Assembly: GCA_018398765.1 (NCBI GenBank)
Contig: JAHBMJ010000054.1
Span: 10,001 to 30,000 of the forward strand
From: Chromera velia
Lineage: Eukaryota > Sar > Chromeraceae
Direction: 5' to 3'
Length of the DNA: 20,000 bases
In this document: piece by piece, positions 421 through 17,943 of the stretch
Layout: every line of letters begins with the position of its first letter
Position numbering within the stretch: the stretch's first letter is position 1
The notes under the pieces: model-generated
The model's input: the letters and a program-made list of their open reading frames with translations, nothing else
Database searches by the model: none
What the model was told of the DNA's origin: nothing
Translations under genes and position numbers: made by a program

Positions 421-509
421 GACGGGGGGAGAGGCAGGTAGGAAGACAGTCTGTCTCTCAGGCGAAAATGAGACAAAAGTTGTAGACGGGGTTGAATGAC
501 TGGACTCAC

Positions 510-529
510 TGAGGAATCCTTCAGATCCT
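510..529 (-). CDS. possible micro-exon of the membrane-protein gene
   Basis: On the minus strand a pyrimidine-rich acceptor ending GCATCAG is followed by coding that accepts the phase-1 end of the exon at 827-764 (reads EDLKDSS). A GTGAGT donor follows after 20 nt. The exon could instead continue further downstream in the same frame. Only the splice signals and phase agreement support it, and no further exon downstream could be recognised between 1 and 509, so this is tentative. Confidence 0.2.
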
Positions 530-763
530 CTGATGCAGAAAGAAAGAGCATACATAGCAGAACCACAATAATCTTTTTTTATGGTCCCTCTCACCCTCTA
601 GTGTATCCATCCGTCTGTCTGTCTGCCCGCCCGGCTACCTGCCTGACAGTGCGCTTCTATCTGCCTCTCTCTTTTTCTTTTCCTGAAGACGGAGAGTTCC
701 GCCGTTTCACCCGCGCACCTCTGAACTGAAATTCCTTTTTGTTCATCTCTGTGTCCACAGAAC

Positions 764-827
764 CTTTCGCGTTGAATGCGTTGACGGGGGCGAAGTTGAC
801 AAGAAAGTCGACGAGGTAGTTGTCAAT
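764..827 (-). CDS. exon of multi-pass membrane protein gene (downstream exon)
   Basis: A 64-nt minus-strand exon bounded by an acceptor TTCCAG (828-833) and a donor GTTCTG. It reads IDNYLVDFLVNFAPVNAFNAK and leaves one base over. It opens in phase 0, exactly the phase in which the upstream exon (1428-1211) ends, which is the main reason to accept it. The peptide is amphipathic to hydrophobic (LVDFLVNFAPV) and could be membrane-associated. The acceptor sits directly beside a 24-bp minisatellite in the adjoining intron. I recognise no family. The rest of the C-terminal part of the gene is not resolved. Confidence 0.6.
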
Positions 828-833
828 CTGGAA

Positions 834-977
834 GGATAAATGTATCTATGGATGGATGGATAAATGTATCTATGGATGGATGGATAAATGTATCTATGGC
901 TGGATGGATAAATGTATCTATGGATGGATGGATAAATGTATCTATGGATGGATGGATAAATGTATCTATGGATGGAT
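834..977. repeat. 24-bp minisatellite, six copies
   Basis: Six tandem 24-nt units (GGATAAATG...GGATGGAT), one carrying a single GGCT variant, fill the acceptor-proximal part of the intron between the minus-strand exons at 1428-1211 and 827-764. Because 24 is divisible by three, most frames stay open through it, which explains the repetitive peptides predicted there. It is intronic and not coding. Confidence 0.95.
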
Positions 978-1210
978 GGATGGATGCCATATGAATAGAA
1001 AGTACCGTCTGTTGCAAAACAATGAGGCAGACGTTCAGGCTGATCTTGGCAAATCGACACGTGATCGTGTGCTGAAGCAACTGGATGACAGACGGCAGAG
1101 CGGAGGGAAGACAGAACGCGCATAGAGATGCGAAAGAAGAAACAGCACGCTTTCTTTCTATCCCCTTTCCTTTTCCCCTCAGCCTTGTTTATCGTTCCTT
1201 TTCGACTGAC

Positions 1211-1428
1211 GTCTGCGATGAAGATGCTCTTGATGGAGTTCAGCAGGGTGTCACCAATGTGTTCGGACTGCACATGCGCACACACAAAGGAAGCCTCCAC
1301 GAACACATCCGTGTGTCTGCCAGATGATGCTTCTACATTGAAGTACAGCTGAACGAGAGCCCCTCCAGGATCCCCGTAGATGCCAAAACATTCAGTCAGG
1401 CACACCCATCCAATGCTTGCAAAGAAAG
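1211..1428 (-). CDS. exon of multi-pass membrane protein gene
   Basis: A 218-nt minus-strand exon. The acceptor is GCTACAG (ending at 1429) and the donor GTCAGT (1210-1205). It opens in phase 1, matching the GAAG end of the exon at 3225-3186, and closes in phase 0, matching the next exon at 827. It encodes about 72 residues: an N-terminal hydrophobic stretch (AFFASIGWVCLTECFGIYG), a short hydrophobic segment (ALVQLYF), then a soluble-looking region ending KSIFIAD. The other frames are interrupted by stops. The consistent phases and cysteine-rich hydrophobic start fit a multi-pass membrane protein. I do not recognise the family. Confidence 0.7.
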
Positions 1429-2084
1429 CTGTAGCATCCTAAGTCCAGCCGGTCCTCCTTTTGTTCCACGGTCGTGGACACAAAGAGAGTCACAAACTCT
1501 CCCGATGAACCTAACAAAGCCCCCCGTTTAGAGTGAGAAACGCAACGGGAGTAGATCCATTCACTCGGGGGCAGTCAGTGCCAGTCAAAAGCACTCAGAT
1601 ACGTGGAAACGGAAAAGAAGCATAAATTGAACTGCCGTCGGAAAAACACTAAAAGGAGAATTCAGCACCCGATCGACGGACCTGAAGGATCATTGTCGAC
1701 CCTGTGAGCAGGAGAGAGACGGGCATGACCAGACACCCAAAAAAACCAAGGAACACGATCAGAATCCAACGCTGAAGGCAAAATGAATGAAACGACCAGA
1801 CGATCAGTCTGCATATCAGTCTACACTGATGCACTCGGGTACAGCGTCTATATGTCGATATCACTCTTTCAATCGAGATCACTCTTTCAATCTATGCAGA
1901 AATTCCTGAGTCCATGAATGCAACGGTCGATCCACCACGTGTGGAAGAGAAAGACTAGTGCACGATCACCACCAAAGTGAGAAAGGACGTATCATTCTGC
2001 ATTCACTTGTTCACTTTTTGAACAGCATTCAAGGAAAGATTCGAAATTCAAACTTCTCTCTCTTTCCTCGTACCTCTCTCCTTG

Positions 2085-2181
<97 letters not shown>

Positions 2182-2219
2182 GGGGAGAGAGAGGGAGAGA
2201 GAGGGAGAGAGAGGGGGAG
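2085..2219. repeat. compound CA/GA microsatellite, copy 1
   Basis: A CA run (about 2085-2133) passes directly into a GA run with AAAG, GGGGA and GGGA interruptions. This is the longer of the two versions in the duplicated intron. The length difference from copy 2 is confined to the CA part. Confidence 0.95.
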
Positions 2220-2873
2220 CNAGCATCCTAAGTCCAGCCGGTCCTCCTTTTGTTCCACGGTCGTGGACACAAAGAGAGTCACAAACTCTCCCGATGAACC
2301 TAACAAAGCCCCCCGTTTAGAGTGAGAAACGCAACGGGAGTAGATCCATTCACTCGGGGGCAGTCAGTGCCAGTCAAAAGCACTCAGATACGTGGAAACG
2401 GAAAAGAAGCATAAATTGAACTGCCGTCGGAAAAACACTAAAAGGAGAATTCAGCACCCGATCGACGGACCTGAAGGATCATTGTCGACCCTGTGAGCAG
2501 GAGAGAGACGGGCATGACCAGACACCCAAAAAAACCAAGGAACACGATCAGAATCCAACGCTGAAGGCAAAATGAATGAAACGACCAGACGATCAGTCTG
2601 CATATCAGTCTACACTGATGCACTCGGGTACAGCGTCTATATGTCGATATCACTCTTTCAATCGAGATCACTCTTTCAATCTATGCAGAAATTCCTGAGT
2701 CCATGAATGCAACGGTCGATCCACCACGTGTGGAAGAGAAAGACTAGTGCACGATCACCACCAAAGTGAGAAAGGACGTATCATTCTGCATTCACTTGTT
2801 CACTTTTTGAACAGCATTCAAGGAAAGATTCGAAATTCAAACTTCTCTCTCTTTCCTCGTACCTCTCTCCTTG

Positions 2874-2956
<83 letters not shown>

Positions 2957-2994
2957 GGGGAGAGAGAGGGAGAGAGAGGGAGAGAGAGGGGGAG
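2874..2994. repeat. compound CA/GA microsatellite, copy 2
   Basis: The same compound CA/GA tract as at 2085-2219, with a CA part about 14 nt shorter. It ends at the unique flank beginning CAGGGAGTACGG. It is likely the other allele, or a replication-slippage version of the same locus. Confidence 0.95.
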
Positions 2995-3185
2995 CCAGGG
3001 AGTACGGGGAGTCACGGCCAGAGGAAAAAGAAAAAGGGAATTTACTCAACACCTCACCGAGCAGAGAAACAAAACCTGCATGCATGCATGCAATGCAGTG
3101 ATCACAGACCCGCCCTTCTCTGCCTTCACACGCCTTAATTCCGTCTCCGCGTTCCATCTCGATCCATCCGTACAGGCCGACTGAC

Positions 3186-3381
3186 CTTCAATCTCCATTT
3201 CCACGAACTCCACGAGCTCGCTGCACTGCCCCCCCTTTCGCCTTCTACCAAGCCGTAAGAATGCCGGAGAGGAACTGCTGAAGGACTTCCCAACGGGGTG
3301 TGGAAGGCGGACCCCCGTGGCCGAGACGGATCCTTTTCGGAACCTTGGGCAAGACCCACGATCAGACATCGGATGTGACCA
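3186..3381 (-). CDS. exon(s) of multi-pass membrane protein gene, internal boundary ambiguous
   Basis: The 3' part on the minus strand (3225-3186) reads CSELVEFVEMEIE. It ends GAAG before a GTCAGT donor, in the phase needed by the exon at 1428. The upstream exon at 3820-3712 ends in phase 2. Two solutions join them. Solution one: acceptor TTTGCAG at 3381, then an exon to 3249 reading GHIRCLIVGLAQGSEKDP..., then a 23-nt GT...AG intron (3248-3226). Solution two: a single exon starting at 3343 after CCCAAG, in the frame FRKGSVSATG... Both are open throughout. The first has the better acceptor but needs an unusually small intron. The region is a hydrophilic serine/arginine-rich loop between membrane segments. 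Confidence 0.5.
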
Positions 3382-3457
3382 CTGCAAACAGTCCCTCACT
3401 CACTCAAGCAGGCAGAGAGAGAAACGTCTAGGCAGGAAGGGAAAGGGGTATCGGAAA

Positions 3458-3510
3458 ACACACACACACACACACACATACACACACACACACACACAAA
3501 CACACACACG
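3458..3510. repeat. CA microsatellite with TA and AA interruptions
   Basis: A CA run interrupted by CATA and CAAA and ending ACACACACGTGTGT. It is intronic, lying between the minus-strand exons at 3820-3712 and 3381-3186. Confidence 0.95.
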
Positions 3511-3711
3511 TGTGTATGATTGCCGCATGGGGGGGACCGCTGGGTCTGAAGGCAAACACCTGCATGTGCATTGTTCAAGCATAAGTGACCAAGCGCACGC
3601 TCACGCATCTATTCATTCAAATTTCATTGAGCAAGCTTCATGCCAAATTTATCTGTCGTTTGTCCGTCTCATTCTGCGCGCACATCTGCCGTGCGAGTCT
3701 GCCCTGCGTAC

Positions 3712-3820
3712 TTGATTTCCGGCACCATTCTGAAGGCGAAGACTGCCACCGCGATGGCGTCCACGTAGATCATCGCAGAGGTCGAGGAGGAGATCAGCTC
3801 AGACAAGCCTTGCGCGTGCA
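3712..3820 (-). CDS. exon of multi-pass membrane protein gene (transmembrane segment)
   Basis: A 109-nt minus-strand exon with a clear acceptor (CCTGTTTGCAG, ending at 3821) and a donor GTACGC (3711-3706). It opens in phase 1, completing a codon left by the exon ending at 4123, and closes in phase 2. It encodes 35 residues beginning HAQGLSELISSSTSAM, followed by a hydrophobic helix (IYVDAIAVAVFAFRMV) long enough to cross the membrane, with a central aspartate. Phase agreement with the upstream exon supports the model. Family unknown. Confidence 0.7.
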
Positions 3821-4122
3821 CTGCAAACAGGAACGTAGGTAGGTTCATCTAAATAAAGAAAGTACTTGCACGGCTACATGTGTGTTGAATCCCGGGGGGG
3901 CATTTCAGGAGAAAACAAAAAAGTTAGAAGTGAGACTGCTGCCATTGGTCACGGGGGCAAATCGGGCCCTTTGTTCATTTGTATCTATGGATACGTGTGC
4001 ACACATGGACGATTCACTGCGTGCAGGGCATTCACCAAATGTTACGTAGACGGACAAAGGAGGAGAGGTCATGAGGGAGCGTTGGCAGATTAGGATTTTT
4101 CTTGACTGACTGGGAATATTAC

Positions 4123-7532: not shown

Positions 7533-8074
7533 ATGCTGAGCGCTAGGGTCTGGCACTTATATTGGGTTACAGGTTTTAACACCCCCTGTACATAAGGGTA
7601 TACCCCCCTGTAATGTTACCCTTACTTCAAAAGTGGTCCCAATCGATCAATCTCATCAGGTTACATCTAAAAATATTAAAAACATCTTCTGTTGATTGAG
7701 GTTATATGAGAAACTGATGAAAAACGATACGTTAGGTTAAATATGCAATACATCTACCGCGCATTGCACGCTCATCGATCTCACTTGAAAAATAGGCGTA
7801 TGCATGATCAAAAAAATTTCAAGGTCGATCGATCGGCCATTGAAGATTGATCGATTGACCCTGTTGGAAATATTGATCGACATCACATCGACATCGAACG
7901 ATATCGAACTCCTGATCAATCCAGATGTTTATCAATTGATCTTGCAATCTGTGGAGCGATCGAAGTCTATACATCCTGTGACCTTGCCTGCACTGATCGA
8001 GCTTTCCCATTGCTCACATGCACAAGTCTTGAAACATGCCTTCGATCTTGCTTTGATCTTTCTCATCAGTCATC
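7533..8074 (+). promoter_or_regulatory. upstream/leader region of the left convergent gene
   Basis: The outer part contains GAGCGCT, then GGCACTT and ATATTGGGTTACAGGT, in the same order as in the reverse complement of the right-hand end (around 15,006-14,960). A stretch with GGTTACA-type motifs follows, then the conserved 34-nt block at 7729-7762, and then a leader unusually rich in CGAT/GATC up to the ATG at 8075. The right-hand gene has the same sequence of parts. It probably contains promoter and 5' UTR, but no TATA-like element or start site can be fixed. Confidence 0.5.
7729..7762 (+). promoter_or_regulatory. conserved 34-nt upstream block, left copy
   Basis: Begins ACGTTAGGT and continues through AAATATGCAATA to TACCGC. 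It matches the minus-strand block at 14598-14565 at 30 of 34 positions without gaps. It lies 312 nt before the left ATG; the right copy lies 262 nt before its ATG. The surrounding leaders are much less conserved, so this is a candidate core promoter or transcription-start element. Confidence 0.5.
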
Positions 8075-9564
8075 ATGGATGATGCTGATCCTTATGCTGA
8101 CGTCAACTTCAAAGATGAGGAGTTGGATGTCGATGCGATTCGAAAGTAGGCACAAACAGACATAGGTGCTTTGGACTTGTTGAAATGCAATTTTGATTTT
8201 TGGACTACGCCTGCTTCCTCAGACACTGCCCAGCCCTCTCACCTTGCTTTGTATATTCTTTATCTGTTCACCAAAATTTCCAGTCAGAGAGAACTCTTCT
8301 TGCAGAGCAAGTACAAGCCTCTTGGTGACGATGGTGTCCCTCGCGGGAAGGCCCGCGAAGCGTACTATCAAGAGCTTGGGGCAGAAATTTTCAAGAGTTG
8401 CATTCCACTGCTGAGGGAGCGATCTGAGCAGAAGCAAACCACATCAAAAAACCAGATCAAGCTTCGGAAGGGTGATCTCTCGGGGGAAGACTTCGCACGA
8501 GTGTTTTGGGAGGTGATTATGGCCGATAATCAGGTTGACGATGAGAAAACCGGCCTTTTATACGGCTGGCAAAATTTCAATCAGCAGGTGAAGTCTTTGG
8601 CAAAAGAACGAAATGCCAGTTCCCCACTAGCAGCGCCCGCACAGGCACCAACAGCAGCTGCAGTACCATCTCAAGAAGGAATTCCGCCCCTCCAACAGCC
8701 ACAGCAGAAGCAGTCGAAGAAAAAGAGGCAGCATACCGATGGATGGGAGCTCAGACCCGAGTTCTACTCTACAGTCAAGGTGAATGAGGAGCTGAAAAGA
8801 TTCCCAAAACTATATTTCATTACCAATGAGGTAATGACAGCGTTACCAATAAGGTAATGACAGCGTTTTACCGCACGTGGAACATCATTTTCGATCCCGA
8901 AAACGATTTATCTATGGTAGTTAATGAGGGATTCAAGCGAACCTTCCTCACTGCCTGCCTTGACAGGCGAACCCTCTTCAAGGGCTTCCGCGGTGAACAG
9001 GCCAAGTATGATGCAGATGTACTGAAGAAGAAGGAGGCAGCGAAAAAGAGGAGAAAAGAGGCTCTAGCGCAGGGTGGTGGGCAGGGTGGGGGCCCAGGGT
9101 CGGCAATAGGATCGGCAGGAGTTCCCGAGGGGTTCTCTGCCCTCTCTGCCCTCTCTGGCCTCTCTACAGGTCTGGTGGTTCCCCAGCAATCTCCAGCCTT
9201 TTCCGCCCTCTCTGCAGGTGGTTTTATCCCCGACCAATCTCAGCAATCTCCCCCTCTCCATCCGGCCCTTCCCCCTGCTACATTCTTTGGGCCCTCCCAG
9301 GCTGAAAGCTCTCTGTCGTTGTCTCAAATTGCAGCGATGAGTTGTGGAGATTTTCAAAAGTTGCAGGAAAGCCTGAAAGCCCTCCCTGCCCCAAGCAGCT
9401 CCTCGAGCTCATCCAGTCAGCCTGCGAGTCAGCCGTTTCCAGGCATTTTTGGTGTACAGGTAGCATCTGATTCAGCGGTGACAGGGGGGGGAAGCAACTT
9501 GCAGACAGGAGATAACAGGGGGGCTGATGGTTCTGGGAGCTCTGACATGTTTCAGACTTATTAA
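8075..9564 (+). CDS. left gene of convergent pair: low-complexity nuclear-type protein of unknown function (interrupted)
   Basis: Starts at ATG 8075 (MDDADPYADVNF), a start similar to that of the right-hand gene (LDVDPYADTDF). The frame meets a TAG at 8147-8149, stays open to a TAA at 8855-8857, and resumes in another frame to the TAA at 9562-9564. The stop lies in a 21-nt GT...AG segment (8129-8149). The frameshift is caused by a 23-bp tandem duplication that also creates a 23-nt GT...AG segment (8831-8853). Removing both gives 481 residues. In order: a helical N-terminal region of about 150 residues (LALYILYLFTKIS, DFARVFWEVIMADNQVDD), an Ala/Pro/Gln linker, a basic NLS-like KKKRQ, a second block (FYRTWNIIFDPENDL), a Lys/Arg helix (LKKKEAAKKRRKEAL), and a Gly/Ser/Gln/Pro tail with FSALSALSGLSTG repeats and a serine run. 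It may be nuclear. It is either spliced with tiny introns or a young pseudogene. Confidence 0.5.
8821..8866 (+). repeat. 23-bp tandem duplication inside the left gene
   Basis: Two adjacent 23-nt units (8821-8843 and 8844-8866) differ at one base (TACCAATGAG versus TACCAATAAG). Each contains AGGT. The duplication shifts the frame, but splicing from the GT of the first unit (8831) to the AG of the second (8853) would remove exactly one unit length. Confidence 0.9.
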
Positions 9565-9949
9565 TAAGAGAAGGCTCTTGTCTCATCCCTTCTCTTCTCC
9601 TTTCCCTCTCCGATTCTCAATTAATATATCAGTTGAAACATAAGGAGAGGGAGAGTGGATACGATGGAGGAGGATGAAGAAAGGGAGAGGATTCAGGGGA
9701 AAGTGAGTGAACCCTCAATTAATGTGAATTCAATCAATGAATCAATCAATCAATCAATCAGTTCAAAATTCATTTTATACACTTCTTTAGTACACAGAAG
9801 CACTTCTTTAGTACACAGAAATTCAGAAAGCATATCAAGACAAAGAAGACGATCAAGATGCATCAATCACGATTCTATGTACAAAGCAGTCAAACAGAAG
9901 GAAGACAGAGAAAAGCAAGGAAGGCGAAGGAAAGCAGGAGTGAACGAAA
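9565..9949. other. 3' flank of the left gene with short repeats
   Basis: Contains pyrimidine-rich sequence after the stop, an AATC tetranucleotide run (about 9733-9760) and a 21-nt tandem pair (9780-9800 and 9801-9820, CACTTCTTTAGTACACAGAA). The open frame that crosses it is low-complexity and has no splice or start support. It runs into the left arm of the large inverted repeat. Confidence 0.6.
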
Positions 9950-10900
9950 CAGAGTGGACTCCAAAGTAGGACTTAGTGGAATCCAAAGTGACTTTTAAAT
10001 TTACTATATTCTAGCTTCATTATAAAATAAAACTAGGTTACTTGAAGCAATCTAGAGTCTTTTAAAGTATTTAAAATCGTTACTCTTGTGCAAATCTGCT
10101 TAAATGTGCTCAAGAGACTGGTTGATTAGCTAGGGTGTATGGTGGGGAAAAATTACGATCACCGCGGCACGTAGAGGTTAATGAATGTTACCTGCAAAGA
10201 AATACACAGGCACAACACTAATGGATACGCTCAAAAGCAACATTTAGCGCCGCCAATTAAGTACAAAGAATTGCTTCTTCTGCAAGGGAAACAGTGCAGG
10301 AAGGAGGGCTTCACAGCTAGGCTGGTCAGACCGGACAGGAGACAGTCAGCAGGGGTTGGAGAGAACAGAGCACAGAGACAACATAATGCTATTCATAAAG
10401 AACTCACACTACACGGCGCAAAAGCTTGCAACTCGTTCTGCGTATGTCAATGAGAAACTATAAAAAAGAAGGATAGGTCCGTAGGTAGATCTAGATGTTT
10501 AGAGGGAGACTAGTACAGAGTATCACAAATGAGAAGGATGAACGAGTAAGGAGCACTTGCGTCGGGATAGTATGGACCATTTTTAACGACTGACACATAC
10601 GGAGCAAGTGGAAGACATTCAAATGCATGAAAGCTGAGCAATTGTTCTGGGTGGAAAAATGTCTGGCAGGACTGAGAGCTGTGCAAAGCTTCAGAAGAGG
10701 CGGTCAAAAAATGGAGGCTCCAGCAGACTCTCCATCGACCCTCTCTCAGTGACCTCCCTTGTACGTTTCTATCAAGCTCCTAGCAGAACAAAGAAGCTAG
10801 ATGCTAAGCAAATCATCATGCAAAGCGAGAGAGCAAGCCGCGCTTCCTTAACTGACCTGCAGGTGTCCTCAAGTCTCCGTCCACCAATACCTGCAAACAC
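9950..10900 (+). repeat. left arm of ~950-bp inverted repeat
   Basis: From CAGAGTGGACTCC to CAATACCTGCAAACAC, this arm aligns along its full length with the reverse complement of 12672-11712. In the first 265 or so aligned bases I counted 24 transitions, one transversion and one single-base indel, about 90% identity. It begins about 385 bp after the stop of the left gene, so it is 3' flank or 3' UTR of that gene. Confidence 0.9.
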
Positions 10901-10967
10901 TTTTTCTGACTGTTTTGGGTCAGGGACCTCGAGTTGGGTCGGACACCCCCCCCCTTCCGAGGTTTAG
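10659..10967 (+). CDS. small open frame in the left repeat arm (102 codons), doubtful gene
   Basis: Starts MSGRTESCAKLQKRRSKNGG and stays open through the inner end of the repeat arm. The opposite arm has the equivalent frame (11953-11615). Across the 81 shared codons I count about 11 amino-acid replacements and 7 silent differences. That does not show strong selection on the protein, although both copies remain free of stops. The composition is basic (RRSK, SRTKK). No splice signals, domain or family is recognised. It may be non-coding 3' sequence that happens to be open. Confidence 0.25.
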   Translation: MSGRTESCAKLQKRRSKNGGSSRLSIDPLSVTSLVRFYQAPSRTKKLDAKQIIMQSERASRASLTDLQVSSSLRPPIPANTFSDCFGSGTSSWVGHPPPSEV

Positions 10968-11711
10968 AAGTCCGCACTTCTGAACTTTGGGCCAGGGGGG
11001 TCAAACCCCCCCGCCGCCAGGTCCAGACATCGGCTTATCGTGGGTCCGGGAGGCGCCGCCACGGGGCCAGAGGGGGTGGCGGCACCCTGCCCCTTCGACG
11101 CACGCAGCCGACTTTGCCTCTGTCGGCCAATAATCGGGTCTGAAGTCTCTTGTCCGTCTTGAAGGTCCACAGGTTCAAAACTGCGAAGTTCTGAACCTCT
11201 AAGCAAACGGACTTTTCCCACAGAAATGTTGTCACAAAAAACGCTCTGTCAGATGTCTTCTGATGGTCTTAGAAGATGTCTGACAGAGCGTTTTCTCGGT
11301 TTTGACTTTTTTTTCGGGAATGTACTTTCGGGGCTCTGGAGGAGACGGCTGAAACAACAGTTGCTGGGTCACCTCGGGTCGGCACGAAGTGGAGCTTGGA
11401 GGTGGGTCCAGTGGACACTAGCCGTCTTGATCTTGTTTCTAACGTCTTTCTGCTTGTTGCTTCTCCTCCTGTTCAAGCGGGGAAGGGCTGCCAGCCTTAT
11501 CTAGGTATTAAAGTACTGCTGCCTTCATTGCTCTCCTTACTCTTTCCTTGCAGGTCACAGTCTTTGGAGCCCCGGGGTCAACCCCCAGGTCAGCCTGTCC
11601 GGACCCGCTGCTTTTTAGGCTCTTGGTTTTGTCCTTGGGACCTTGTGCATGCAGAATAAGCTGGACAGAAGTGCTTCCTTGACTGCATAAAGCGTGAACG
11701 CCTGTCCCTCC
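10901..11711. other. spacer between the inverted-repeat arms, rich in hairpins
   Basis: About 810 bp unique to the centre of the unit. It holds a ~35-bp imperfect inverted pair (10959-10993 with 11164-11199), and inside it an 11-bp GC stem with one mismatch (11052-11062 with 11076-11086) and a GGGGGGT-CAA-ACCCCCC stem (about 10995-11012). A separate 24-bp-arm hairpin lies at 11238-11294. The axis of the large repeat (about 11,311) differs from the axes of the small ones, so they are independent foldbacks. No convincing exon was seen. Confidence 0.7.
11238..11294. repeat. strong hairpin: 24-nt arms, 9-nt loop
   Basis: Arm AAAACGCTCTGTCAGA... (11238-11261) pairs with ...TCTGACAGAGCGTTTT (11271-11294), with only two mismatches in the middle of the stem. 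The loop is GATGGTCTT. It lies near the centre of the spacer of the large inverted repeat. Candidate roles are a small-RNA precursor, a cruciform or recombination site, or a small foldback insertion. No evidence decides among them. Confidence 0.85.
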
Positions 11712-11953
11712 GTATTTGTAGGTATTGGTGGACGGAGATTTGGGAACACCTGCAGGTCAGTTAAAGAAGCGCGGCTTGCTCTCTCACTTTGTATGATGAG
11801 TTGCTTAGCATCCAGCTTCTTTGTCCTGCTAGGAGCTTGACAGAAACACACAAGGGAGGTCAGTAAGAGAGGGTCAATGGAGAGTCTGCTGGAGGCTCCA
11901 TTTTTTGACCGCCTCTTCTGAAGCTTTGCACAGCTCTCAGTCCTGCCAGACAT
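11615..11953 (-). CDS. small open frame in the right repeat arm (112 codons), doubtful gene
   Basis: The counterpart of the frame at 10659-10967 (starts MSGRTESCAKLQKRRSKNGA). It stays open across the repeat arm and past its inner end, where the two frames diverge completely (EGQAFTLYAVKEALL here). Replacements include Arg to Cys and Tyr to Cys, which argues against a constrained fold. It could be non-coding. Confidence 0.25.
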   Translation of the reverse strand: MSGRTESCAKLQKRRSKNGASSRLSIDPLLLTSLVCFCQAPSRTKKLDAKQLIIQSERASRASLTDLQVFPNLRPPIPTNTEGQAFTLYAVKEALLSSLFCMHKVPRTKPRA

Positions 11954-12672
11954 TTTTCCACCTAGGCCAATCGCTCAGCTTTCATGCATTTGAATGTCTT
12001 TCACTTGCTCTGTGTGTGTCAGTCTTTCAAAGCGGTCCATACTGTCCTGACGCAAGTGCTCCTTTCTCGCTCATCCTTTCTCATTTGTAACACTCTGTAC
12101 TAGTCTCCCTCTGAACATCTGGATCTACCTACAGACCTGTCCTTCTTTTTTACAGTTTCTTATTGACAGACGTAGAACGATTTGCAAGCTTTTACGCCGT
12201 GTAGTGTGAGTTCTTTGTGAATAGAATTATGTTGTCTCTATGCTCTGTTCTTCGGAATCCTCTCCGAACCCTGCCGACCGCCTCCTTTCCGGTCTGACCA
12301 GCCTAGCTGTGAAGCCCTCCTTCCTGCACTGTTTCCCTTACAGAAGAAGCAATTCTTTGTACTTGATTAGCGGCGCTAAACGTTGCTGTTGAGCATATCC
12401 ATTAGTGTTGTGCCTATGTATTTCTTTGCAGGTAATATTTACTAACTTCCACATGCCGCGGTGATCGTAATTTTTCCCACGATGCACCTTAGCTAATCAA
12501 CCAGTCTTTTGAGCACATTTGAGCAGATTTGCACAGAAGTAGCGGTTTTAAATGCTCTAAAAAACTTTAGATTGCTTTAAGTAACCTAGTTTTACTTTAT
12601 AATGAAGCTAGAATATAGTAAATTTAAAAGTCATTTTGAATTTCACTAAGTCCTACTTTGGAGTCCACTCTG
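11712..12672 (-). repeat. right arm of ~950-bp inverted repeat
   Basis: Reverse-complement partner of 9950-10900. It starts 113 bp beyond the stop codon of the right gene (12785). Differences from the left arm are almost all G/A or C/T exchanges. Confidence 0.9.
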
Positions 12673-12784
12673 TTACGAGAGAAGGGAAAAAAACAAGTAC
12701 TAGAGAGGGCAAAAGCTGAAATGGCGAGCTGTTGACCTGAAATTCTGTCCAAAAAGCTTTTCGCGTAGGGCTTTCTGCCGGCTT

Positions 12785-14302
12785 TCACCCTCTCCGTCCA
12801 AGTTCAGCGAGGAATGCAATAAGACGGTGAAATTCCCCCTCCAGAGTCCGTCTTTGTGACTCCGCTACTTCACAACACCAATACCAATCGTAAGCACCGA
12901 TCAGCCAGATTGTATGCCAAAACACGGACTTCTCTGTCGCTATGCCGAGAGCTGCTGGGAGCTCTTTGTCATCAGCCACGTACAAGATCTCGGTGATCAG
13001 CTCGAGTTTGATGTCCAGTGGAGCATTAGAGAACTCTTTGGCAATCCTGCATGCATGCACATCAATGCAGTGCTGCAACAGAAAGTGAGTGATAGAGCGA
13101 GACAAACTGACTGCATGACAGACAGAAAGGCGTACACTAACAAATTGGTGACACACAGACAGACACACAGACGGTTACACAGACAGACAGACACACAGGG
13201 AGAGTGAGTCAGACAGACTCACATATACAAGAGACCGATCGACGGATAAATGGCCCGGACCAACTAACCAGATAGGGTTATTAAATAGCTCAAACAAGGC
13301 CTCTGCCATCCGCTGAGCCATTGCCATTCCAATAGCACTCTCGCACTCCCCCTTCACGCTGTATAGAGTCGATGCCTTTGTAAACCCTCGCTTCAAAAAG
13401 TCTATTTCTGGATCTAGAAATCAGAGGACGGCTTAGAGCATGTGACGACCAAGTGTTGTCTTTCCAAATGTGAACCCGTCCTCCCATAGGAGGGCGATGA
13501 GCCGTTTCTGTACACAAATCTTTTGCCTTTTCGGATCAAATACAACGGGCTCTTGGGAGATCGACTCAAAGTCGATGGCCTTGCGATCGACTTTGCCTTT
13601 CAAGCTTCCCTTCAAAACTGATAGCGTTCTCTTCTTGAAGTATCCACCCTCCCTCTCCTTGTGTTTCAACTGATACATTGAGAATGCCACGGCTTCTGCA
13701 AGGGTCATCTCTTTCTTTTAGACTCAAGGCAACACCTTGTAGACAAAGCAGATTTCCAACTTCCCCTCAAATGGGCAAAACACTGCAGCAAGAGTGCAAT
13801 ATCGACTCTCCTGCATCAATGACAACTCAAGTTTTTCGATTGCATGAAGCCTGAATCTTTTCAAAACGTCGGATAACACCTTCCGGGGAAGCCCGCAAAC
13901 TGTGGACTCTTAAAAAAGACTCAGATCGACTTCTGGAAAGATCTCGGTCAAAGCTCTCCTGAGCTTGTCATTCTCATAGATGCGGCGGGAGTTTCGTAAC
14001 GTCGCAGCGAGTCCGCGGCAAGAGACTTTGTTCGCAACCATCAGATTCAACGGTAGAAAATAAACTCGGTATTGTCTGTACATTTTTTTCTGGAGGCAGA
14101 CCTTACGCTTAGCATCTCTAATCCGCGCAATATTTGCTGCGTTGCGTTCTGCTCTCGGTAACTTGGACACTCCAAATTCTGCGTCTTTTGGGACCTCTTT
14201 TCGAGCGGCACAGGTTCTTCTATCAATACGGAGGTGAAACGACTCACTTGCACTGGTTGCAAAGTCTGTGTCAGCATACGGATCGACATCAAGAGACATC
14301 AT
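12785..14302 (-). CDS. right gene of convergent pair: unknown protein (interrupted by in-frame stops)
   Basis: Minus strand, start ATG 14302 (MMSLDVDPYADTDF), stop TGA at 12787-12785. One frame runs from 14302 to about 13223 with no frameshift but five stops (TAA; TGA and TAA; TAA and TGA). They fall in three segments that each begin GT, end AG and have a length divisible by three: 13920-13900 (21 nt), 13735-13715 (21 nt) and 13449-13414 (36 nt). An ordinary 150-nt intron (13222-13073, GTGAGT to TTGCAG, phase 0) precedes the last exon. All four removals give 429 residues. The first part is basic (DAKRKVCLQKKMYRQYRVYF), the middle carries KHKEREGGYFKKRTLSVLKG, and the last exon is Trp-rich (FWHTIWLIGAYDWYWCCEV). 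I recognise no family, and the body does not resemble the left gene beyond the N-terminal motif. Alternative: a pseudogene with nonsense transitions. Confidence 0.5.
13073..13222 (-). other. conventional intron of the right gene
   Basis: Donor GTGAGT after TAT, acceptor TTCTGTTGCAG before CAC, phase 0 on both sides, 150 nt. The interior is a CAGA/CACA simple repeat. Unlike the shorter candidate introns in this gene it has textbook splice signals, which shows that the gene is or was spliced. Confidence 0.65.
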
Positions 14303-14528
14303 TGTGGATAATAATATCGATATCGATCGATATACCTACAAATTTTGCTTTCAGAGTCTCGAGTATCAATCTTTATGAAGTCTGGAGTCGATCTGTTTTG
14401 ATCTATGATGAGTAGACGGACCTTACAAGGCGATCGATTTACCCTCTTTGCAATATCGATTGATCGATATTCGATGCCTTGAAGGTGCATAAAAATCAGT
14501 CTGATGTCACATCGCGCGATCGCGCATG

Positions 14529-14560
14529 GTGTATTGGTAAGCCAGTGTATTGGTAAGCCA
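14529..14560. repeat. 16-nt tandem pair
   Basis: GTGTATTGGTAAGCCA occurs twice in direct, exact tandem. It lies between the conserved 34-nt block and the leader of the right gene. There is no equivalent in the left leader. Confidence 0.95.
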
Positions 14561-14564
14561 TCAA

Positions 14565-14598
14565 GTGCGGTACATATATTGCATATTTGACCTAACGT
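14565..14598 (-). promoter_or_regulatory. conserved 34-nt upstream block, right copy
   Basis: The minus-strand counterpart of 7729-7762 (30 of 34 identical, no gaps), beginning ACGTTAGGT. It lies in the same orientation relative to its gene, 262 nt before the ATG. Confidence 0.5.
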
Positions 14599-14617
14599 GG
14601 ATGTGTCCTTTTCACTT

Positions 14618-14850
14618 TGTAGCCAAACCCCTTGTAACCTTGTAACCTGTAACCTAAAATAACCCTCTTCAAAAGTGATGTAACCTTTGTTTACATGCAT
14701 TTTAAAGTGTTTTTAAAGTAATTTAAAGAGTTTTTGAAAGTTGACTTTTTAGTCGGTTATGGACTTCAAGACCCCCTGTAACCTTGTAACCTGTAACCTT
14801 GCAAGGGCACATATATACTAAGGGGTGTAACCTCATGTAACCACATAACC
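14618..14850. repeat. array of GTAACCT / AGGTTAC motifs
   Basis: GTAACC recurs about a dozen times (for example CCTTGTAACCTTGTAACC near 14630 and again near 14778), with spacings mostly of 7-8 bp or short gaps. A sparser version (GGGTTACAGG, GTTACCC, GGTTACAT) lies at 7562-7665 on the left. It is telomere-like in style but not a standard telomere repeat. Confidence 0.6.
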
Positions 14851-14998
14851 TATACAGTAAAAGTGATTGATTTTGAAGTAACTCAACATGCCGGACCTCT
14901 AGCTTGTCTGGAAAGCTTGTCAAAATGTTTTTTGGTTCATTTTTTATGTTATTTTTGCACTTGTAACCCTATATGAGCCCAAGAGTGCCCCCCCCTAG

Positions 14999-15181
14999 GC
15001 TGAGCGCTCCCGGAAAGCTTCTGGATGGGTGAGGAGCACTTTGGTTCGGAAATGGAGGCTTAGACTGACGGGCTCGAGGACCAGGCTCAAGGAGATCCTA
15101 GAAATGCTGTCCACGTACATGCGGAGGGCCGACCTGAGCAACACCAGGAGAAAGGGGGCTAGGAGGCCTCTATTAACTCAG
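14999..15181 (+). CDS. possible plus-strand exon, arginine-rich
   Basis: Open for 61 codons and ending CAG before a consensus donor GTAAGT (15182). It includes a basic helical stretch (LTGSRTRLKEILEMLSTYM). The upstream end coincides with the GAGCGCT boundary of the inverted unit, and no acceptor or initiating ATG is clear. No partner exon was found downstream within the window. It could be a real exon of a host gene next to the unit, or chance. Confidence 0.25.
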
Positions 15182-17462: not shown

Positions 17463-17651
17463 TTGAAGAGAATTTAATGGCATTTAAAGCAATGGTGAAC
17501 ACTTCAAAGCCAAATTTAGGATCTTTCGAAGCGCTGACCTCCGGAGCAAGGCCTTCGGCATATGTTCGCAGCCCCTCATCAGCAAGTTGGCTTGTCAGGC
17601 GGTCTTTTGCAGTCGTTTCCTGTCGGACTGCAAAAGCATCCCTGAGAAGAC
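17463..17651 (-). CDS. duplicated exon, downstream copy (donor lost)
   Basis: With an acceptor at GGCAAG (ending at 17652) it reads LLRDAFAVRQETTAKDRL..., then LADEGLRTYAEGLAPEVS, and ends NAIKFSS; about 63 codons, charged and helical-looking. At the position of the GTATTC donor in the other copy this one has GG, so the exon would run on to a stop at 17443 (TEMHA). It may be the terminal exon of a gene or a broken copy. No family recognised. Confidence 0.4.
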
Positions 17652-17943
17652 CTTGCCTGTGCAAAAGCGTGCAATGCTACTATTGCTGTTGTTTATGAAT
17701 ACGTGAAGAGAATTTAATGGCATTTAAAGCAATGGTGAACACTTCAAAGCCAGATTTAGGATCTTTCGAAGCGCTGACCTCCAGAGCAAGGCCTTTGGCA
17801 TATGTTCGCAGCCCCTCATCAGCAAGTCGGCTTGTCAGGCGGTCTTTTGCAGTCGTTTCCTGTCGGACTGCAAAAGCATCCCTGAAAAGACCTTGCCTGC
17901 ACAAAAGCGTGCAATGCTACTATTACTGTTGTTTATGAATACG
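17464..17943. repeat. tandem duplication of a 240-bp unit
   Basis: Copy 1 (17464-17703) and copy 2 (17704-17943) are the same length and differ at eight sites, all transitions. Each unit contains a whole candidate exon plus a short stretch of intron on the minus strand. Confidence 0.95.
17703..17891 (-). CDS. duplicated exon, upstream copy
   Basis: 189 nt (63 codons) between an acceptor GGCAAG and a donor GTATTC. The intron to the next copy would be 51 nt (17702-17652), and phase 1 is kept on both sides, so the two exons can be joined in frame as a repeated 63-residue module. It reads LFRDAFAVRQETTAKDRL... Compared with the other copy there are five amino-acid differences and no silent ones. 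Function unknown. Confidence 0.4.

Follow-up and report, generated by a model that had tools for sequence, protein, structure and literature searches.

A stretch of 20,000 nucleotides from the Chromera velia genome (assembly GCA_018398765.1, contig JAHBMJ010000054.1, positions 10,001 to 30,000; hereafter the window) contains two genes that face each other, gene A on the left and gene B on the right. These genes and their flanks had been described from the window alone (the original prediction) as one imperfect inverted unit of 7.5 kb, with short shared blocks at its outer ends and long inverted arms between the genes. We compared the window, C54:10001-30000 in the contig numbering used below, with the 177.8-Mb, 4040-contig genome assembly. 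We found that what had been taken for one two-gene unit consists of three distinct mobile DNA elements nested in one another: a short dispersed repeat on the outside, a gene-bearing element in the middle and a fold-back repeat within the latter.

The outermost layer is a repeat of 582 bp with CTAGGG inverted ends, present in the window as a left piece (7543..7727, plus strand) and a right piece (14602..14998, plus strand). Just outside its ends lies an 8-bp direct repeat, GCTGAGCG, identical at 8/8 bases between 7535..7542 and 14999..15006, which had not been noticed before and which marks the target duplication. Searching the genome with the left end listed 42 matches (40 of 93 candidates scored). 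Besides the window itself, 34 of these extended only up to about window position 7728, and 7 matched only from 7729 on; with the right end, all matches listed, the window excepted, started at about 14600. When the outer flanks of the window were joined at 7727|14602 to make an empty-site query, it was spanned by 40 of the 41 outer-repeat loci fetched, some of which contain the same genomic copy twice, and 30 of the 41 alignments were free of gaps. The best match of the sole non-spanning locus (L052) was confined to the right part. Flanking duplications were also common in the family: among 44 aligned instances, some of them fetched more than once or lying in tandem at C775, 35 differed at no more than one of the 8 flanking bases and 7 agreed at 4 or fewer; of mismatched pairs, 0.95% reached 7 or 8. 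The blocks GAGCGCT, GGCACT and ATAT.GGGTTACA, previously taken for the ends of the gene unit, are thus the target duplication and the inverted ends of this outer repeat. At C775 (5744-7496; loci L077 and L078) the same repeat forms at least three head-to-tail units with a spacing of about 585 bp, a dispersed 582-bp element turned satellite-like.

The genes themselves belong to the middle element. BLAST comparison of other copies with the window placed their left ends at 7729 in 7/7 cases, and the preceding base is C in all seven and T in the window; therefore, the terminus is CACGTTRGG and the element runs from 7728 to 14599. Right ends stopped at 14599 in 6 of 7 copies, the remaining one (C2045) stopping at 14601 since two flanking bases match by chance; C1621, C3045 and C3873 contributed a left end only, and C442, C703 and C3480 a right end only. 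A 32-nt terminal inverted repeat, unseen in the original prediction, occupies 7729..7760 on the plus strand and 14567..14598 on the minus strand (91% complementary); these are the actual inverted termini of the element that bears the genes. Comparison of the family copies showed that the element is bordered by a 2-bp target duplication, GA, at 7726..7727 and 14600-14601, and four of the five copies that retain both ends have such a duplication (C54, GA; C822, AG; C2595, AG; C1358, AT). Inverted repeats at fixed ends and a duplication of fixed length are the marks of a class II transposon. A degenerate 23-nt terminal pattern, CACGTTRGGTYAAATATGCAATA, gave 16 matches genome-wide with up to 3 mismatches, all within 11 contigs already known to carry the family, and its reversed control gave 0 at the same threshold. 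The other two-ended copies measure 7.5 kb (C1358), 6.3 kb (C2595), 2.3 kb (C822) and 1.1 kb (C2045); the window copy is about 4.1 kb once the inner repeat is left out. The idea of a mobile element with two convergent genes, one of two readings first offered for the locus, holds for this middle layer, but the ends claimed for it (true ends, 7728 and 14599) and the arms do not belong to it.

The arms belong to the third layer, a fold-back repeat of 2.7 kb (9948..12674) with termini AACAGAGTGGACTCC. They are about 90% alike, as originally stated: 9945-10900 and 11712-12677 align over 967 columns with 89.9% identity. In the middle-element copies of C2595, C1358, C3873 and C703, window position 9947 runs on at 12675 with a 4-bp overlap and without an insert, so ACGA, single in these four empty sites, was duplicated around 9948-12674 and now stands at 9944..9947 and 12675-12678. 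When the right arm and part of the spacer were used as a genome query (40 matches scored of 255 candidates, window included), the repeat proved to be dispersed, and 7 further loci were inspected. All 7 possess the AACAGAGTGGACTCC terminus with up to 3 mismatches allowed, 5 of them (L003 and L005-L008) contain inverted arm or spacer pairs, and the L005 copy is flanked by TCTC on both sides. Furthermore, the C1621 copy of the middle element harbors part of the fold-back repeat at a different site, after window position 9730. Because of the four empty sites, the dispersal elsewhere and the different site in C1621, the arms of about 950 bp are a dispersed repeat whose insertion was independent of the genes, the very finding that the original prediction had named as contradicting it. 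The proposal that the opposed 3' regions of the two genes would yield about 950 nt of complementary transcript, and with it double-stranded RNA, accordingly falls away, the arms being a separate insertion. The spacer contains a 57-nt self-complementary stretch (11238-11294) that is 81% identical to its own reverse complement.

Nesting fixes the order of insertion as outer, middle and inner. We consider it very probable that the locus as a whole reflects three successive DNA-type insertions, the middle one a two-gene transposon with CACGTTRGG ends. The 582-bp non-autonomous repeat with inverted ends would have inserted first, generating its 8-bp duplication; a transposon with CACGTTRGG ends and two convergent genes would then have entered that repeat, with a 2-bp duplication; and the fold-back repeat would finally have entered the middle element beyond the second exon of gene B, with a 4-bp duplication.

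Both genes of the window copy are damaged. Gene A (8075..9564, plus strand) is interrupted by an in-frame TAG at 8147 and by a 23-bp tandem duplication (about 8822-8867) that shifts the frame, and in the C2595 copy it is open for 391 codons across both lesions. The first exon of gene B (13297..14302, minus strand; inner border approximate) includes a WEDG block and has 5 in-frame stops in the window, and in C3873 the exon displays an open frame of 283 codons. The putative second exon (12785..13072, minus strand; predicted borders and splice sites) contains an ADDKQL-type block, ADDKEL in the window. In addition, the window copy has lost internal DNA. Two short filler units in tandem mark a deletion scar at 9784..9817, and between window positions 9791 and 9818 the copies in C2595 and C1358 have an extra 2.2 kb and 3.4 kb, respectively, while the C3873 copy is about 10 kb longer at this site and includes runs of N. 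The extra DNA of C2595 and C1358 contains further open stretches on the gene B strand, hereafter the C exons, that recur in two sister families.

We also examined the similarities between genes A and B on which the original prediction had drawn. The 34-nt block reported in both genes is real and extends to 40 nt: a copy 3' of gene A (9623..9662, plus strand) is 92.5% identical (E 3e-11, pairwise search) to 13640-13679 in the coding sequence of gene B, and it is also present in C2595, C1358 and C3045 at 95-97.5%. The block has the same sense in both genes; therefore, it provides no complementarity between their transcripts. The DPYAD motif was likewise confirmed in the N-termini of both A and B. 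The supposed kinship of the two leaders was not convincing, since the score of their alignment past the terminal repeat was reached by 23/500 and 16/500 dinucleotide shuffles, and that of the leaders in the better-preserved C2595 copy by 6/500. By this measure the leaders score nominally above most shuffles, a marginal result far from clear homology.

Relatives of gene B, about 24-35% identical, were found in two sister families, the first represented by C911, C23, C1907 and C1035 and the second by C1873, C2882 and C1929; one weak gene B match was found in C3607. Both sister families contain C exons on the gene B strand, with 37% identity to C1035 over 271 columns and 49.5% to C1873 over 103 columns. 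Gene A also has relatives in the first sister family, on five contigs. Identity is 35% over 91 columns; E was 2e-8 when two loci were searched and 9e-4 genome-wide. Genes A and B are convergent in 7/7 window-family contigs that match both protein queries and in 4/4 contigs of the first sister family with both genes (C911, C23, C1907 and C1035). Judged by these alignments, the convergent gene pair is genuine, recurring in a sister family with proteins about 25-40% identical. In the second sister family, the homology of C1873 and C2882 begins exactly at CACGCTGG, close to the end of the window family, and C1929 aligns from 2 bases before it. No end was located for the first sister family. In C1035 (L087, about 440-4060) the exon of gene B that bears ADDKQL is amplified in tandem with a spacing of 397 bp, and several units have open frames of 184 codons.

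The middle family has also decayed in a strongly biased manner. We counted singleton substitutions between 7728-14599 and the copies in C2595, C1358, C3045, C3873, C1621 and C703, and found 192 C:G>T:A changes versus 9 reversed in the left part (6 copies; per-site ratio 19.7) and 167 versus 13 in the right part (5 copies; per-site ratio 13.3). The same count gave per-site ratios of 4.5 in 36 copies of the outer repeat and 4.3 in 8 copies of the fold-back arm. The mutation rate at CA and CG sites of the middle element is about 1.6-2.7 times that at CC and CT sites. These values tentatively suggest an excess of C-to-T decay in the middle family compared to the other two repeats, whose copy sets were chosen differently.

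What might the two genes encode? Several blocks are conserved across families, namely WED(G/E), DDKQLxAALGI, PG.MH.C and PLF.L(D/E)EGR.EQ, and the blocks of gene B and the C exons may be read as the core of a DDE-type transposase. The middle element is most likely a two-gene cut-and-paste DNA transposon, in which the transposase would be the joint product of gene B and the downstream C exons missing from the window copy, if these are spliced into one gene, with gene A contributing an accessory protein; the window copy would be a dead, internally deleted derivative.

A number of observations weigh against this interpretation. The transposase reading comes from inspection of motifs, and the splice sites that would join the B and C exons are predicted ones. 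Pfam scans of the gene pieces gave no convincing match (best PF09344, E 0.004, 17.1 bits versus a cut-off of 26), a search of the PDB with the gene pieces found no convincing relative (best E 0.22), and a single-sequence fold of the window gene B had a mean predicted local distance difference test score (pLDDT) of 33.6 and was not used. No middle-family copy examined has a fully open set of genes, each being broken at different places. At the thresholds used, the second sister family (C1873, C2882 and C1929) yielded no relative of gene A, and C2045, one of the five two-ended copies, lacks the 2-bp duplication (AA versus GA). Other Pfam matches below the cut-off, among them DUF4875, Arg_repressor, CPxCG_zf, Melibiase_2_C and Cas_CT1975, were dismissed.

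It is quite possible, if somewhat short of an even chance, that the middle element belongs, as a divergent member, to the CACTA/EnSpm-Mirage-Chapaev-Transib (CMCT) group, an assignment that would refine our best explanation. According to PMC12730594, CMCT elements have CA..TG ends in most cases and target duplications of 2-5 bp, a range into which the CAC..GTG ends and 2-bp duplications of the middle element fit. The same source (PMC12730594) describes C(2)C and H(3-4)H motifs between the second D and the last E as group-wide; however, in the pieces examined no instance of either motif is shared by all three families, and the gene pieces have no convincing Pfam match. Single instances of C(2)C or H(3-4)H do occur in one family or another, and incomplete exon joins could hide a motif. 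The Kyakuja-Dileera-Zisupton (KDZ) group was considered and set aside, since it requires target duplications of 7-8 bp, the length given for Kyakuja and Zisupton in PMC12730594, and the middle element has 2 bp.

It is less likely, and on present evidence rather doubtful, that the three families form a new superfamily of DNA transposons whose B+C transposase has a core not detectably related to described ones. Such a superfamily would be characterized by a convergent accessory gene A in two of its three families, CACGYTGG ends in two of three and 2-bp duplications in the window family, on which a C-to-T mutating process would act. We found no description of the middle element in the literature searched, including the available parts of PMC12730594 and PMC4501334; this negative is a weak one, most subscription papers, supplements and Repbase being outside the search.

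An origin of the middle element as an endogenised virus or virus-like element, and not as a transposon, would agree with its possession of more than one gene and with the lack of known relatives for these genes. We regard it as very improbable given the short inverted ends, the 2-bp duplications and the shortened derivatives; moreover, a search of IMG/VR viral contigs, able to reach close relatives only, revealed no relative of the two window protein pieces, and the pieces scanned with Pfam gave no capsid or polymerase match. Still less credible is the second reading in the original prediction, a cassette-type gene family in which the flanks are conserved and the coding bodies are replaced or evolve very fast, taken together with regulation by double-stranded RNA from opposed 3' ends. 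The DPYAD motifs, the common 40-nt block and leader scores exceeding most shuffles speak for it, but gene bodies are 92.8-95.4% identical in DNA between aligned middle-family copies, the leader scores lie within the range of the shuffles, the arms were inserted separately, the 40-nt block is same-sense, and all 16 terminal-pattern matches fall in contigs already known for the middle family. The blocks and arms of a single inverted 7.5-kb element with GAGCGCT/GGGTTACA ends do exist, but such an element is next to impossible with the outer repeat contiguous and lacking the interior in 40 of 41 loci and the arms absent from four other gene-bearing copies.

Elsewhere in the window, about 790 bp are repeated in tandem at 1433-2223 and 2222-2998 (98% identity; a single N lies at 2221), possibly a recent event or an effect of assembly, and 240 bp are repeated in tandem at 17464-17703 and 17704-17943 (97% identity). 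Scanning the window for Rfam families and tRNAs gave no hit, and seven neighboring open reading frames had no Pfam match above the cut-off.

Taken together, these results replace a false 7.5-kb unit with a history of nested insertions, two levels of which are backed by empty sites. The middle family is a further DNA transposon with several genes, for which neither Pfam nor the PDB offered a convincing relative; it would be useful for the study of transposase diversity if the DDE reading is true. In addition, the strong C-to-T bias of its decay could open repeat-targeted mutation or methylation to testing in this organism.

Each of the three elements can be compared to a known kind. With its 582 bp, CTAGGG inverted ends, 8-bp duplication and many copies, the outer element is similar to hAT-like and other miniature elements with 8-bp duplications, although it has no demonstrated coding capacity or link to a transposase. 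The inner element, dispersed and built of inverted arms of about 950 bp around a spacer with a 4-bp duplication, resembles the class of fold-back or long-inverted-arm repeats, a comparison made at the level of the class and not of a superfamily. Plant CACTA elements have a two-gene layout, as does the middle element, whose genes, in contrast, are convergent, and whose gene pieces show no conserved C(2)C/H(3-4)H and no match to Pfam Transposase_21. We therefore do not class the middle element as CACTA, yet in its CAC..GTG termini, very short target duplication and shortened derivatives it resembles a CACTA/EnSpm element and appears to work like one.

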